Of a stretch of DNA of 64,000 nt, positions 37-60,664 are shown in pieces. Under the pieces are notes generated by a model that saw only the letters and a program-made list of their open reading frames with translations, was not told the origin of the DNA and ran no database searches. This stretch comes from Brevundimonas sp. M20 (lineage in GTDB: Bacteria > Pseudomonadota > Alphaproteobacteria > Caulobacterales > Caulobacteraceae), in NCBI RefSeq assembly GCF_006547065.1, contig NZ_CP041243.1, positions 496,001 to 560,000 on the forward strand. Reading direction: 5' to 3'. The translations under genes and the position numbers were made by a program. Each line of letters opens with the position of its first letter. Within the stretch, counting starts at the first letter, position 1.

Positions 37-1434
37 ATGACCCAGACTCTCAAAACCAAAGTCCTCATCATCGGCGCGGGCACCGGCGGCTATGTCGCGG
101 GCATTCGCTGCGGCCAGCTGGGCCTCGACACCGTGCTGGTGGATGGCGGCAACGGCCTCGGCGGGACCTGCCTGAACGTCGGCTGCATTCCGTCCAAGGC
201 CATCATCCACGCGGCCAACAAGTTCGAGACGGTGGCCAAGGCCGCTGACGGCGGGACGCTGGGCATCACGGCGGCCAAGCCGGCCATCGACCTGAAGCAG
301 ACCGTCGAGTGGAAGGACGGCATCGTCAGGAAGCTGAACAACGGCGTCGCGGCCCTGCTGAAGAAGGCCAAGGTCAAGGTCATCAACGGCTGGGCGACCT
401 TCGCCGACGCCAAGACCTGCACGGTGAAGACCGCCGACGGCGACATCACCATCACCGCCGAGCACGTCATTCTGGCCACCGGCTCCGAGCCGGTCGAACT
501 GCCCTTCCTGCCCTTCGGCGGCGACGTGATCTCGTCCACCGAGGCCCTGTCGTTGCCGGACGTGCCGAAGAAGCTGGTCGTCGTCGGCGGCGGCTATATC
601 GGGCTGGAGCTGGGCATCGCCTTCCGCAAGCTGGGGGCCGAAGTCGCCATCGTGGAAATGGCCGACCGCCTGCTGCCGCTGTACGACAAGGCCCTGACCG
701 AGCCGGTCGCCAAATGGCTGCAGAAGCACGGCGTCGAACTGCACCTCGGCGCCAAGGCGGGTTCGTTCGAGAACGGGGCCCTGAACGTCACCGGCGCCGA
801 TGGTCAGGCGCTGAAGATCAAGGCCGACAAGGTGCTGGTCACCGTCGGTCGCAAGCCGCGCACCAAGGGCTTCGGGCTGGAGAACATGGGCGTGGCCATG
901 GCCGGGCCGTTCGTGAAGATCGACGACCGCTGCGCCACCTCGATGAAGAACGTCTGGGCGGTCGGCGACCTGACCGGCGAACCCATGCTGGCCCACAAGG
1001 GCTCGGCGCAGGGCGAGGTCGTCGCCGAGATCATCGCCGGCCATGACCGGAAGTTCGACCCGGTCACCATCGCCGCCGTCTGCTTCACCGAGCCGGAGAT
1101 CGTCTCGGCGGGTCTCGGGCCGCAGGACGTCACGGGCCGCGACGATGTGATCCAGGCCGTCTTCCCCCTGATGGCCATCGGCCGGGCGCTGGCCATCGAA
1201 GCCGGCGAGGACGGCGGTTTCGTCCGTGTTCTGGCGTCCAAGACCGACCATCGCCTGCTGGGCGTGCAAGCCGTCGGGCAGCACGTCTCGGAACTGTCCA
1301 ACAGCTTCGCCCAGATGCTGGAAATGGGCGCTGTGCTTGAGGACGTGGCCGGAACCATCCACGTCCACCCGACGCTCGGCGAGGCTTTCCATGAGGCGTC
1401 CCTGCGGGCGCTGGGGCATGCGATCCACATCTAG
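37..1434 (+). CDS. lpdA: dihydrolipoyl dehydrogenase (E3)
   Basis: A 465-aa flavoprotein disulfide reductase that reoxidises dihydrolipoamide on 2-oxoacid dehydrogenase complexes with NAD+. Seen: an N-terminal FAD dinucleotide fold GAGTGG (about residues 13-18), the redox disulfide GGTCLNVGC with Cys45/Cys50, a second NAD fold GGGYIGLE near 187, the FAD-binding VWAVGD segment near 305, and the C-terminal HVHPTLGE active-site His/Glu motif. Full family length. The ATG at 37 gives the usual N-terminus. Partner E1/E2 genes are not in the window, so the complex served (pyruvate, 2-oxoglutarate or branched-chain) is unknown. Its TAG stop abuts a heptamer hairpin repeat. Confidence 0.96.
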
Positions 1435-1533
1435 GGATTAGGGATTAGGGATTAGGGGAGAGGAGCGGGTTGGCGCCGGCGATCGCTGCAGCGCGCCATC
1501 GACCTGATCCCCAATCCCCAGTCCCTAATCCCT
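1434..1533. repeat. heptamer hairpin element, copy 1 (GGGATTA type)
   Basis: The left arm has three exact GGGATTA units (1434-1454). The right arm carries the complementary units in degenerate form (1509-1533, AATCCCC, AGTCCCT, AATCCCT). The core between them is GC-rich. The first G of the element is also the last base of the lpdA TAG stop. The core, about 1463-1493, resembles the core of copy 2 (21009-21035): both contain GAGCGGG followed by GCGCCGGCG and GCAGCG. See the other copies at 20957, 25044, 47437 and 60514. Confidence 0.85.
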
Positions 1534-14472: not shown

Positions 14473-14636
14473 GGCCTAACGCTCGCGACGCGGTCGCTCG
14501 CTGCTTGAGGCCCGTTGTTTGACGGCGCTTGTGTCGGGCGCCCCTCCACCACGTTTCGCGCGGTCCCCCTCCCCTGAAGGGGGAGGAACTTGTTCCGGCC
14601 TCAAGGAGCGAGGCTCCGCGAGCCGAGCGTTAGGCC
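14473..14636. repeat. long inverted repeat enclosing a second palindrome
   Basis: Outer arms are a perfect 13-bp inverted repeat GGCCTAACGCTCG (14473-14485) / CGAGCGTTAGGCC (14624-14636), with further pairing inside (GCTTGAGGCC / GGCCTCAAGG). Nested inside is a 'CCCCTCCACC ... GGTCCCCCTCCCC' segment of the same family as 27951-28070 and 37410-37548. It looks like one repeat inserted in another. Confidence 0.75.
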
Positions 14637-20204: not shown

Positions 20205-20888
20205 TCACGGCGGCCCCATGAAGGGCGCGCCGCCCGGCAGACCGGGCAGGACCCCCGTGGACGGGGGAGACGCCGGAGACGATGAAAATACACCGTCTAT
20301 CCCGTCTATGTCGTCTATGCCGTCTATCGGATCGGCGATCACATCAGCCTCGCGGCGGCGGATGTCCGCCTCCATGATCCGGGTTTCTTCGCGCAGGCCC
20401 TTCATCAGGGCTTCGGTGGCGGCGCGGGCCTTTTCTTCGGCTCTGGCCTGTCGGGTTTTGGCCAGCCACTGGCGGCGCTCGATTTCCGCCGCCTCGGACT
20501 GGATGACGTTGTGCACGCGGCGCCAGCGCAGGGCCTCCATGGCGTTGCCGTGCAGGACGGCGCGCATCATCCGCTGGAAGGCGACGACCGACAGCTCGCC
20601 CAGCGGGATCTGCTCCAGATCGCCGTCGACGCTCTCCTCCAGCGCCAGCCCCTCGTCATCGCGGTCCAGCCCGTTGGGCGTGGTCCACGGCTGGTCCGTG
20701 CGCCGCCAGCCCTCCTCGGCCGCCCGCTTGCGCAAGGTGCTCAGGCCCACGCCGTGACGACGGCAACAGGCGGGCGCCGACCACCCGGCCAGATAGTCCG
20801 CCCGGACCTGCTCCCAGACCTCATCGGGGGCGGAGTGGAGGCCCGCGTCCGCGGGGACGGAAGGGGCGGTGGGGGATGTGTCGTTCAC
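20205..20888 (-). CDS. HTH protein resembling phage terminase small subunits
   Basis: A 227-aa protein from GTG 20888, which has GGAGG 6 nt upstream; a 235-aa ATG start at 20912 is the alternative. Residues about 20-60 (VWEQVRADYLAGWSAPACCRRHGVGLSTLRKRAAEEGW) look like the homeodomain-like HTH of terminase small subunits and similar phage proteins. The middle is a long Arg/Glu/Ala-rich helix, probably coiled coil. The tail has a four-fold I-D-(G/D) repeat encoded by a 9-bp tandem repeat, then a Pro-rich end. No large terminase or other phage gene adjoins it. A DNA-binding role is inferred. Confidence 0.65.
   Translation of the reverse strand: MNDTSPTAPSVPADAGLHSAPDEVWEQVRADYLAGWSAPACCRRHGVGLSTLRKRAAEEGWRRTDQPWTTPNGLDRDDEGLALEESVDGDLEQIPLGELSVVAFQRMMRAVLHGNAMEALRWRRVHNVIQSEAAEIERRQWLAKTRQARAEEKARAATEALMKGLREETRIMEADIRRREADVIADPIDGIDDIDGIDGVFSSSPASPPSTGVLPGLPGGAPFMGPP
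20293..20328. repeat. 9-bp tandem repeat inside the HTH gene
   Basis: Four units of (C/T)CGTCTAT(C/G). Read on the minus strand they encode an Ile-Asp-Gly/Asp repeat near the C-terminus of the HTH protein. Unit number could vary between strains without frameshift. Confidence 0.85.
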
Positions 20889-20956
20889 GGGAGCCTCCGG
20901 GTCTGGAGGCATTATGGAACGGCGGTACGTCGTTTTTGGACGTAGGGGGGAGGGGA

Positions 20957-21066
20957 GGGATTAGGGACTAGGGATTAGGGATTAGAAGGGCGAAAATTCG
21001 TGCTCCGGGAGCGGGCGCCGGCGCCTGCGGCAGCGACCTAATCCCTAATCCCTAGTCCCTAATCCC
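20957..21066. repeat. heptamer hairpin element, copy 2 (perfect arms)
   Basis: Left arm 20957-20984 is GGGATTA, GGGACTA, GGGATTA, GGGATTA. Right arm 21039-21066 is the exact reverse complement, including the variant second unit, so the 28-bp arms are perfectly mirrored around a 54-nt GC-rich core. The right end supplies the last codons and the TAG stop of the small minus-strand gene at 21059. Confidence 0.92.
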
Positions 21067-21280
21067 TTTCAATCCGCCCGATCCTCAACACCCCCACGCT
21101 CAGCTCATCGACGTGCAGCCGCCGCACGCGGGCCCCCTTCACCTTGAGTTGGCCGATCTTCAGCACCCCGATCGCCAGCATCCCGGCACCGACCGCCCCG
21201 ACCGACGCCGCCCCGGCGGCCGTGGCCCCGACAGCGGAAGCCTTGCGGGCGGTGGAACGGAGCGTGCGGGGCTGGGGCAT
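21059..21280 (-). CDS. small hypothetical protein with Gly/Ala-rich hydrophobic segment
   Basis: A 73-aa protein. A basic N-terminus (PRTLRSTARKAS) is followed by a Gly/Ala/Val-rich stretch (GATAAGAASVGAVGAGMLAIGVL, residues about 18-40) that could span or associate with the membrane, then repeated short strands (LKIGQLKVKGARVRRLHVDELSVGVLRIGRI). The alternating I-G-x-L-x-V pattern suggests a small beta structure. The final residues and stop lie in the heptamer hairpin. Function unknown. Confidence 0.5.
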   Translation of the reverse strand: MPQPRTLRSTARKASAVGATAAGAASVGAVGAGMLAIGVLKIGQLKVKGARVRRLHVDELSVGVLRIGRIERD

Positions 21281-21597
21281 AGGCCGGAGGATGCGCCGAT
21301 GGGGGCGGGGCGCAAGGGTTTCCTTCTCACCTTGCGTTAGAAGGTGGATCCCGGAGCGAGACAGATGAGGGGGATCCGCTCCGCACCCACCTCTCTGGCC
21401 CTCTTCCCACTCCTTTCTCTCTCAATGTCAGAAGAGAAGGAGGCGTGTTTGCGAACCGGGACGCCTCTGCCCTCGATACAGGAAGTGGTTGACGAAGGTG
21501 GCCGTCCCAAGGACTTCCACGCTGGCAGAAAAGAGCGCGAGACATGCGGTCGCTGCATGCGCCCGACTGCCAGCGATTGAGGATTTGGAGCTCGGGA
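21281..21597. other. intergenic stretch, no supported gene
   Basis: Holds an imperfect palindrome around 21343-21405 (GGATCCCGGAGCG ... GGGGATCCGCTCCG). Several short open frames exist on both strands but none has a good start context or family character. From about 21540 the base composition shifts toward the AT-richer segment that carries the next gene. Confidence 0.45.
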
Positions 21598-23687: not shown

Positions 23688-25700
<2,013 letters not shown>

Positions 25701-25771
25701 TCAAAGCGTTTGAGGTCCGCCGACGTCGGGCGTGCGGGTCCTGTGGCGTGAGGCCGTGACCCGAAGCGTAC

Positions 25772-25868
25772 TCATCCCTTCGCCGGCATGACCCGGATCA
25801 GGTTCGACGGGTCAGAGGGCTACCTCAATCTCAGCGGCTCGAATGCCGCCCCCCGGAGAACGGAAGCA
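25772..25868 (-). promoter_or_regulatory. TPP riboswitch (THI box)
   Basis: Read on the minus strand the conserved TPP aptamer blocks are in order: GGGGGGCGGC, CTGAGAT, GACCCGTCGAACCTGATC, CGGGTCATGCCGGCGAAGGG. It ends about 80 nt before the thiC start. Thiamine pyrophosphate binding is expected to turn thiC off. Confidence 0.95.
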
Positions 25869-27868: not shown

Positions 27869-27922
27869 GCCGCCACTCTCGGGCCGGGCGGGTGAGTCGG
27901 GCAAGGGGAATGGGGCGCCTTG

Positions 27923-28070
27923 GGGTGTGGGGTGTGGGGTGTGGGGCGTCACCCCTCCACCATGCTTCGCCTTGCGGCTCGCATGGTCCCCCTCCCCAGC
28001 TTCACTGGAGAGGTGATGGCGACAGTTCACCTCTCCACGCACCGGAGAGACGGAGAGGTAGGGGGATGCC
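27923..28070. repeat. half heptamer element joined to a CCCCTCCACC palindrome
   Basis: 27923-27950 is three GGGTGTG units plus GGGCGTC, the same unit as in thiC, but no complementary right arm follows. It runs straight into 27951 'ACCCCTCCACCATGCTTCGCC...GGTCCCCCTCCCC' and paired 'GGAGAGGTGA / TCACCTCTCC' segments. The second part recurs inverted at 37410-37548. The stretch between the TetR and BLUF genes (27869-28327) is otherwise noncoding. Confidence 0.7.
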
Positions 28071-47421: not shown

Positions 47422-47436
47422 GTACCTCGTGTGGTT

Positions 47437-47529
47437 GGTGATTGGGTGATTGGTGATTGCCTGAAGTGAAGGGCAGCCAATCGAGCCGTCGGTCGGCCCA
47501 CCTTCACCAATCACCAGTCACCAATCACC
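47437..47529. repeat. heptamer hairpin element, copy 3 (GGTGATT type)
   Basis: Left arm GGTGATT, GGGTGATT (8-nt variant), GGTGATT (47437-47458). Right arm, read in reverse complement, GGTGATT, GGTGACT, GGTGATT (47509-47529). Core of about 50 nt. Lies between the Cys-rich lipoprotein gene and a terminator. Confidence 0.85.
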
Positions 47530-60460: not shown

Positions 60461-60513
60461 GGGGGCGGCTGGCTCGGGCGGTGGTGCGTGGACGGCAGGC
60501 GCCGTGCGGGCAA

Positions 60514-60623
60514 GTGATTAGTGGTTAGTGATTAGTGGTTCGCGGCGTCACGGGCTGTTGTCGTCCTGGAACCGGCTGCAGGCCCAGCCACCCACTAATC
60601 ACTAATCACTAACCACTAGTCAC
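60514..60623. repeat. heptamer hairpin element, copy 4 (GTGATTA type)
   Basis: Left arm GTGATTA, GTGGTTA, GTGATTA, GTGGTT (60514-60540). Right arm in reverse complement GTGACTA, GTGGTTA, GTGATTA, GTGATTA (60596-60623). The distinctive second unit (GTGGTTA) occupies the same rank in both arms. Core about 55 nt. Lies between convergent genes. Confidence 0.9.
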
Positions 60624-60664
60624 TTTCCGGGCTCACTGCCCGCCGTCCAAGCGCGGTCAGGGCG

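Follow-up and report, generated by a model that had tools for sequence, protein, structure and literature searches.

The closest described systems to the hairpin discussed here are the intervening sequences (IVSs) of 23S rRNA, the heptamer repeats of Xanthomonas and Nostoc and the REP sequences associated with RAYT genes. In Coxiella, the termini of the 23S rRNA IVS form a stem of 28 bp, with tandem GACAGAT heptamers just 5' of the S23 ORF; this IVS is called a selfish element, and mobility of IVSs in general has been conjectured (PMC4990558). As described by Rehm (2015), the GGGAATC and GGGGA(C/T)T heptamers are intergenic and G-rich, occur as convergent inverted pairs (70 and 75 in two Xanthomonas genomes) and are treated as G4-forming, their role being left open; they were defined as (GGGANTN)n with at least two units, at least one of them GGGAATC. 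Regarding the RAYT-REP system, the gene is always flanked by inverted palindromic repeats, gene-less copies are dispersed, and the protein and the repeat coevolve (PMC2817692). The IVS protein belongs to PF05635, the 23S rRNA IVP or S23 family ('four helix bundle'), which is called functionally uncharacterised. In addition, a resemblance of this family to Avd has been noted (PMC10053308).

The focal hairpin is located at 20956-21067 of the window, which is the whole stretch of 64,000 nucleotides that was analysed (G000:C1:496001-560000, G000 being this genome of 3,315,348 bp), and ORFs flank it on either side. Its left arm (20956..20985, plus strand, AGGGATTAGGGACTAGGGATTAGGGATTAG) consists of the units GGGATTA, GGGACTA, GGGATTA and GGGATTA, followed by a core of 52 nt (20986..21037) and by the right arm (21038..21067, minus strand), where the same units are mirrored. 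A sequence-only reading of this DNA had described the arms as exact reverse complements, including the variant unit, and this is confirmed over 30 nt at 100%. That reading recognised no named family with such an architecture; likewise, no named family was found to which the hairpin belongs, and an Rfam scan of the window at the gathering score gave no match at the hairpins and no rRNA, the sole match being a TPP riboswitch at 25757-25865 on the minus strand. The foot of the hairpin reads AGGGATTA. None of the relatives compared showed the focal site in an empty version. The cores of GGGATTA hairpins are mostly dissimilar among themselves, and the right inner edge of the focal core, GCGGCAGCGAC(C), has a weak resemblance, seen by eye, to the subterminal motif TCGATGCCGC of GTGATTR hairpins, which occurs at 8/10 or better in 2 of 11 GGGATTA hairpins (null mean 0.28).

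Similar to the IVSs, whose terminal inverted repeats of ~28 bp contain heptamers, the focal arms are built of four heptamers over 30 nt. The IVSs of Coxiella, Leptospira and others also hold a PF05635-type ORF between their terminal inverted repeats, as do the gene cassettes of this genome described below, but not the focal hairpin, whose core is too short for such a gene. Compared to the IVSs, the present elements are intergenic, many per genome and mostly without a gene, and the heptamers of their two flanking arms differ by IVP clade; no rRNA location was seen among the sites whose flanks were inspected. The repeats of Rehm share the arrangement of intergenic G-rich heptamers in inverted pairs, and Xanthomonas campestris encodes an IVP (XCC0516, PDB 2GSC). 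The focal arms fit GGGANTN, as GGGATTA or GGGACTA, but contain no GGGAATC; moreover, no linked gene is named in the part of that work consulted, whereas the heptamers of the present elements vary with the IVP and may be poor in G-tracts. As in a MITE, the GGGATTA arms of the focal hairpin are shared with a gene-bearing cassette (G000:C1:2984233-2984705).

The same reading proposed a family of six members in the window, of which five hairpins stand, while the sixth is a solo TGGGGTG array (27920..27949, plus strand) with no partner arm found. Besides the focal one, there is another GGGATTA hairpin at 1433..1533 (arms 1433-1457 and 1509-1533, 88% complementary), a GGGTGTG hairpin at 25044..25154, a GTGATTG hairpin at 47431..47529 and a GTGATTA/GTGGTTA hairpin at 60509..60628, so that GGGATTA is the only heptamer used twice. 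These are less perfect than the focal hairpin, with 84, 86 and 88% complementarity in the three that were scored, the one at 47431 not being among them. The idea of a dispersed family beyond chance was borne out, as the same detector, run on the window itself, found five period-7 hairpins, compared to 1, 0, 1, 0, 0 and 0 in six dinucleotide shuffles of it (two in total). Throughout ~552 kb of the genome, a sample formed by the window and by stretches many of which were picked around matches, 49 period-7 inverted repeats were found, among which some GC-rich ones are probably false; the G-rich arm is on the left in 44, and 40 passed stricter filters. The density in stretches chosen without regard to matches was 3 hairpins per 220 kb, which extrapolates to roughly 45 hairpins in the whole genome; when the 5 hairpins of the 64-kb window are counted as well, the figure rises to 93.

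A linked transposase or reverse transcriptase had been expected for these hairpins; instead, the linked gene found is PF05635. At 2984233-2984705, a whole gene lies between two GGGATTA arms, and its product matches PF05635 (E 1.3e-34) and TIGR02436 ('four helix bundle protein'). This genome has five PF05635 gene places, one of them frameshifted, and inverted arrays bracket all five (5/5), four being scored for arms and the frameshifted one judged by eye. Besides GGGATTA, the cassettes use GTGATTA/GTGGTTA (G000:C1:1970122), GGGTGTC/G (G000:C1:1047265), alternating GGAATTA/GGGCGTA (G000:C1:2287890-2288148), where the gene is frameshifted and the arms are still mirrored, and AGTGAGC with a broken period (L098). 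Four of the five units recur in gene-less hairpins, as GGGATTA, GTGATTR, GGGTGTG and GGAATTA, and the window hairpins at 25044 and 60509 have units similar to those of the cassettes at 1047265 and 1970122, respectively. When pseudo-genes were used as a control in the same genome, arms were present in 7/400, none with period 7. The structural model of the IVP from the GGGATTA cassette (pLDDT 92.9) matches best 2GSC (XCC0516) and 2RLD, followed more weakly by Avd. Compared with Avd chains, some of them in a DGR reverse transcriptase complex, it gives a TM by query of 0.73-0.80 with Foldseek E values of 0.007-0.08, and the Avd profile matches the IVP weakly, below the cut-off.

This association is also observed outside the genome, whose host is very likely a Brevundimonas, since loci from two genomes of its genus have 100% identity to contigs bearing that name. 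The PF05635 gene is present in 32 of 61 genomes of the genus, and inverted arms with a score of at least 16 were found in 44/52 genus loci (52 of the 57 matches listed, five fragment rows being left out), vs 21/200 swapped-partner pairs, where the left and right sides come from different loci. Named loci across phyla have arms of at least 16 in 61/75 and of at least 14 in 68/75, vs 28/400 and 50/400 swapped pairs; this set is the best 80 of a longer list, 75 of them having enough flank and at least three of the 80 repeating genus loci. Arms of at least 16 were seen in Alpha- and Betaproteobacteria, Cyanobacteria, Planctomycetes, Acidobacteria and one of four Caldilineaceae, while those of a Bacteroidales locus and of a Clostridia locus reach 14 and not 16. 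On plasmids, arms of at least 16 were found in 15/16 loci, a set with related members and without its own control; in viral contigs, arms of at least 14 were present in 27 of the 32 tested out of 34 loci, also without a control and with several near-identical contigs, and four of the five misses seem to come from a single virus (two being 100% identical). One viral contig (L404) carries a tandemly duplicated IVP cassette with an array between the copies. In cyanobacterial plasmids (L424, L428 and L430), IVP cassettes are found in CRISPR operons, twice as cas6-IVP-cas4 and once as cas10/cmr2-IVP-cmr3.

The period of the arrays is mostly 7, with the loci L162, L182, L183, L208, L216, L221 and L226 of Mesorhizobium having period 8 and GGGGAGTA-like units. 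Among 110 period-7 cassettes, the unit consensus is A (90%), G (99%), G/T, N, N, N, T (64%), and 109 of them have their G-rich arm on the 5' side. In the AGTGGCG clade (L104, L106, L107, L109, L113, L121 and L133), the array enters the gene and encodes the N-terminus, MSGEWRVASGEV... and variants. Close IVP pairs mostly sit in homologous surroundings, suggesting that the cassettes are fairly stable.

Co-variation between protein and repeat is observed as well. Across 108 cassettes with homologous-flank pairs removed, protein distance correlates with heptamer distance (Mantel r 0.31, 0/2000 permutations), with r 0.43 in the genus alone. At protein distances of 0.2-0.4, the heptamers differ on average at 1.6-1.7 positions, compared to 2.9 in distant pairs, and just 40 of 269 non-orthologous pairs in that range have exactly the same heptamer; hence, related proteins tend to have similar heptamers. 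Regarding single residues, Y63 of the GGGATTA-type protein lies in the first turn of helix 3 in the model. Among 134 cassettes, a Tyr aligned to Y63 goes with GG units in 78/78 and a non-Tyr with non-GG units in 47/56, by a rotation-free score, since the rotation of the heptamer is sometimes ambiguous (AGTCGGC or CGGCAGT). This column is the best of all, with 93% agreement compared to 81% for the next one, and on the tree only three changes of Tyr and GG coincide (expected 0.49, P 0.009). The agreement holds in 15/16 viral loci that were unused when the column was found, some of them close relatives of earlier loci. In the plasmid set, Tyr is found with GG in 5/6 loci having arms (the sixth, at 0.49, has AGGGAAA units), and 5/9 non-Tyr proteins also have GG, so that only 'Tyr implies GG' survives and not the converse. 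XCC0516 carries Tyr at this position, fitting the GGGAATC units of Xanthomonas.

The arrays of each genome were also compared with its resident IVPs. Of eight genomes with an AGGCA(A/G)(C/T)-type IVP, seven have AGGCAGT arrays, vs 9 of 53 others (P 1.8e-4), a count that includes cassette arms, six of the seven (all but G060) showing matches elsewhere among the matches listed. GGGATTA arrays are present in 3/3 genomes with a GGGATTA-type IVP vs 12/58 others (P 0.013), these 12 being genomes where no GGGATTA-type IVP was found. In addition, AGTGGCG and AGGCAGT units are present in G000, which has no cassette of either type. The GTGATTR gene-less hairpins also have inner edges in common: the inner-edge motif is found in 10/22 (null mean 1.14, maximum 5 in 200 shuffles), both edges are shared by 6 of the 22 (null mean 0.22), and two of the eight genus GTGATTR cassettes, L099 and L141, match these edges at 8/10 and 6/7. 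These motifs were read by eye off the same hairpins and tested against mononucleotide shuffles, making this evidence partly circular and supportive only.

Site polymorphism is observed at several places. In G058, which carries an AGGCAGT cassette of its own (L137), the focal site has AGGCAGT arms, a different core and, by eye, the same left boundary; the site is 68% identical over the aligned stretch, its orthology being judged from the right flank. At the paralogous site of G000 (1771098), the arms are of the GGGGTGT type, and the G058 counterpart is again AGGCAGT. The E1 site (2247812-2247918) has in G012 a core that is common to G000, G010, G021 and G018 (0/1000 shuffles each) and, by eye, to G032 and G014. 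Meanwhile, its arms are GGGATTA-type in five genomes, GGGTCGA in G021 and AGGGGCT/AGGTTCT in G018, matching the unit of a resident IVP cassette in three of the seven shared-core genomes (G000, G021 and G018); the IVPs found in G010, G012 and G014 use other units, none was found in G032, and five other genomes have no heptamer element at E1. Among 30 genomes, the L100 site holds an IVP cassette in three, a gene-less GGGCTTA/GGAATTA hairpin in G058, 0-29 nt in eight, another inverted repeat in six and other sequence in 11, one being unanchored. Occupied and empty versions were seen at L100 and E5, with diverged and inexact boundaries. Judging from these alignments, fixed sites are either empty or occupied by a gene cassette or by a hairpin without a gene, depending on the species. 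Regarding exact empty sites, none emerged: two Calothrix plasmids have the same genes around their IVP, and three viral flank scans returned the same contigs and one ~67%-identity relative without the cassette at the junction. Another family of inverted repeats, GGTTCATCACAACGAACACAACGA...TCGTTGTGTTCGTTGTGATGAACC, whose arms themselves contain short repeats, is located at IVP-type element sites of other species, as seen in L358, L359, L362, L364, L368 and L370 (NUDIX/kdsB site) and in G025 and G010 at E2.

Considering these observations together, the focal hairpin is likely a non-autonomous, REP/MITE-like, gene-less member of an IVP element family, and IVPs are likely distant structural relatives of the Avd of DGRs. 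The heptamer arrays would be the terminal inverted repeats of the element, and we infer that the IVP, a pentamer in a solved relative, binds the tandem AGKNNNY units, thus recognizing and perhaps pairing the two arms. It may then promote in trans the spread or upkeep of hairpins bearing its own heptamer, as proposed for RAYT proteins and REPs, while host replication or repair may supply the catalytic step. The drift of the heptamer and the drift of the protein would be coupled, giving rise to 'dialects'. These observations are consistent with a gene-bearing element being paired with gene-less copies in a REP/RAYT-like manner, but the protein here is a four-helix bundle and not a known nuclease.

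A broader proposal, which is tentative and possible rather than probable, is that IVPs are sequence-specific partners of tandem heptamer arrays in bacteria, phages and plasmids, forming a new class of protein and repeat with a readable code. Each clade would 'speak' one AGKNNNY heptamer, the Tyr at Y63 would go with GG, and hairpins would be rewritten to the resident dialect, although such rewriting fits in only 3/7 genomes at E1. If true, the excess of heptamers in bacteria, the 23S rRNA IVSs and the orphan 'four helix bundle' proteins would be explained together, and it would suggest an origin of DGR Avd by recruitment from elements of this kind.

The alternative that survives best, although unlikely, is active arm-to-arm copying without a dedicated protein, through hairpin-templated synthesis, quasipalindrome template switching or gene conversion. 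The sequence-only reading had concluded that the arms must be copied from each other, and the focal hairpin and the one at 2256880 are indeed perfect over 29-30 nt, variants included. At sites E1 and E4, both arms carry another heptamer together between species, a concerted change suggesting that the arms are coupled over long times. Moreover, 89 of 118 left-arm deviations are mirrored in GTGATTR hairpins (background 0.23), which had been preselected by their mirroring; the first test on the same hairpins gave an own mean of 0.82 compared to a cross mean of 0.64 (0/5000 permutations) and was set aside because of that selection, and its version for GGGATTA hairpins was not significant (P 0.125). 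When gene-less hairpins were chosen by one arm, own arms were compared with other arms of the same heptamer, resulting in P = 0.61 for GGGATTA (n = 11) and P = 0.07 for GTGATTR (n = 21); among the IVP cassettes, which were picked by gene, the own-arm score exceeds the mean cross score in 37/77. Own arms being no better matched than foreign arms with the same heptamer, the conclusion is unsupported in general, and copying as a general rule was rejected. The outer order ATTA-ACTA recurs in both arms at 95463 and 2256880 and in the left arm at 2987223; thus, a terminal-repeat feature of the family as a whole is the simplest account of the mirrored variant, which, given the comparison of own and foreign arms, is not in itself evidence of arm copying. 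Copying would also leave unexplained the constant period, the AG polarity and the link to PF05635.

It seems quite improbable that the hairpins are RNA stem-loops, i.e., bidirectional terminators or processing sites under selection on pairing. No excess of sense-strand G.U mismatches was found between cassette arms (144 vs 134, P 0.59), which argues against selection on an RNA stem, and pairing alone requires neither heptamers nor a linked gene; the lack of Rfam matches at the window hairpins points in the same direction. The Coxiella 23S rRNA IVS does fold and is cut by RNase III (PMC4990558), and hairpins are commoner between convergent genes (16/37 classed vs 89/446 gene pairs, P 0.003, with crude ORF calls), an enrichment that is as expected for insertions tolerated there.

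A retroelement, where the IVP acts like Avd with a reverse transcriptase in trans and the hairpins spread as cDNA, would draw on the resemblance of the model to Avd chains and on the sub-cut-off profile match. However, the reverse transcriptase family PF00078 has no match in the whole of G000, compared to matches in 3 of 14 control genomes, and this origin is similarly doubtful.

Plain simple-sequence repeats, arising by polymerase slippage and kept as G-quadruplexes, are very unlikely. Among long repeats, heptamers are reported to be the commonest class in most of the genomes studied, slippage and G4 formation having been proposed (PMC4692102, PMC4679880), but units such as GTGATTG, AGTTGTT and AGCTTTT have no G-tracts of three, and in many phyla the arrays flank PF05635 genes as oriented inverted pairs. 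Finally, MITEs derived from REP/RAYT or IS200/IS605 elements share the layout of a gene between inverted repeats with gene-less copies (PMC2817692) and are extremely improbable, being contradicted for G000 by the lack of any match to the Y1 transposase PF01797 (found in 5 of 14 control genomes), by a focal foot without the GT(A/G)G head and by a linked gene that is PF05635, a four-helix-bundle protein and not an HUH/Y1 nuclease; the arms, moreover, are tandem heptamers on either side of a core.

Earlier work described the gene-bearing IVS elements and the inverted heptamer pairs separately. The unification of the two, along with the dialects and the chromosomal copies that lack the gene, appears to be new in the literature searched, where the Coxiella IVS paper (PMC4990558) was the only one found to join PF05635 to heptamer arrays, most subscription journals and bioRxiv lying outside the search. 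The heptamer repeats, reportedly the commonest class of long repeat in most bacterial genomes of one survey, and PF05635 seem to belong to a single system, observed here in Proteobacteria, Cyanobacteria, Planctomycetes, Acidobacteria and others. This points to a candidate residue for specificity and puts the 23S rRNA intervening sequences and Avd in a new light, and elements of this kind may help to explain why such repeats are common in bacteria.

Some minor features were also noted around the focal hairpin. The gene on its left (window 20205-20912) has an 81% copy at G000:C1:1771098-1771822, and each of the two ends at a heptamer hairpin, in different dialects. On the other side, a stretch of 53 nt at ~21320-21373 of the window has 81-89% identity to many places in most genomes of the genus. 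In addition, an 83% inverted repeat with 40-nt arms is located at 14473-14636 of the window, and a similar one is found at G000:C1:2830950-2831103.
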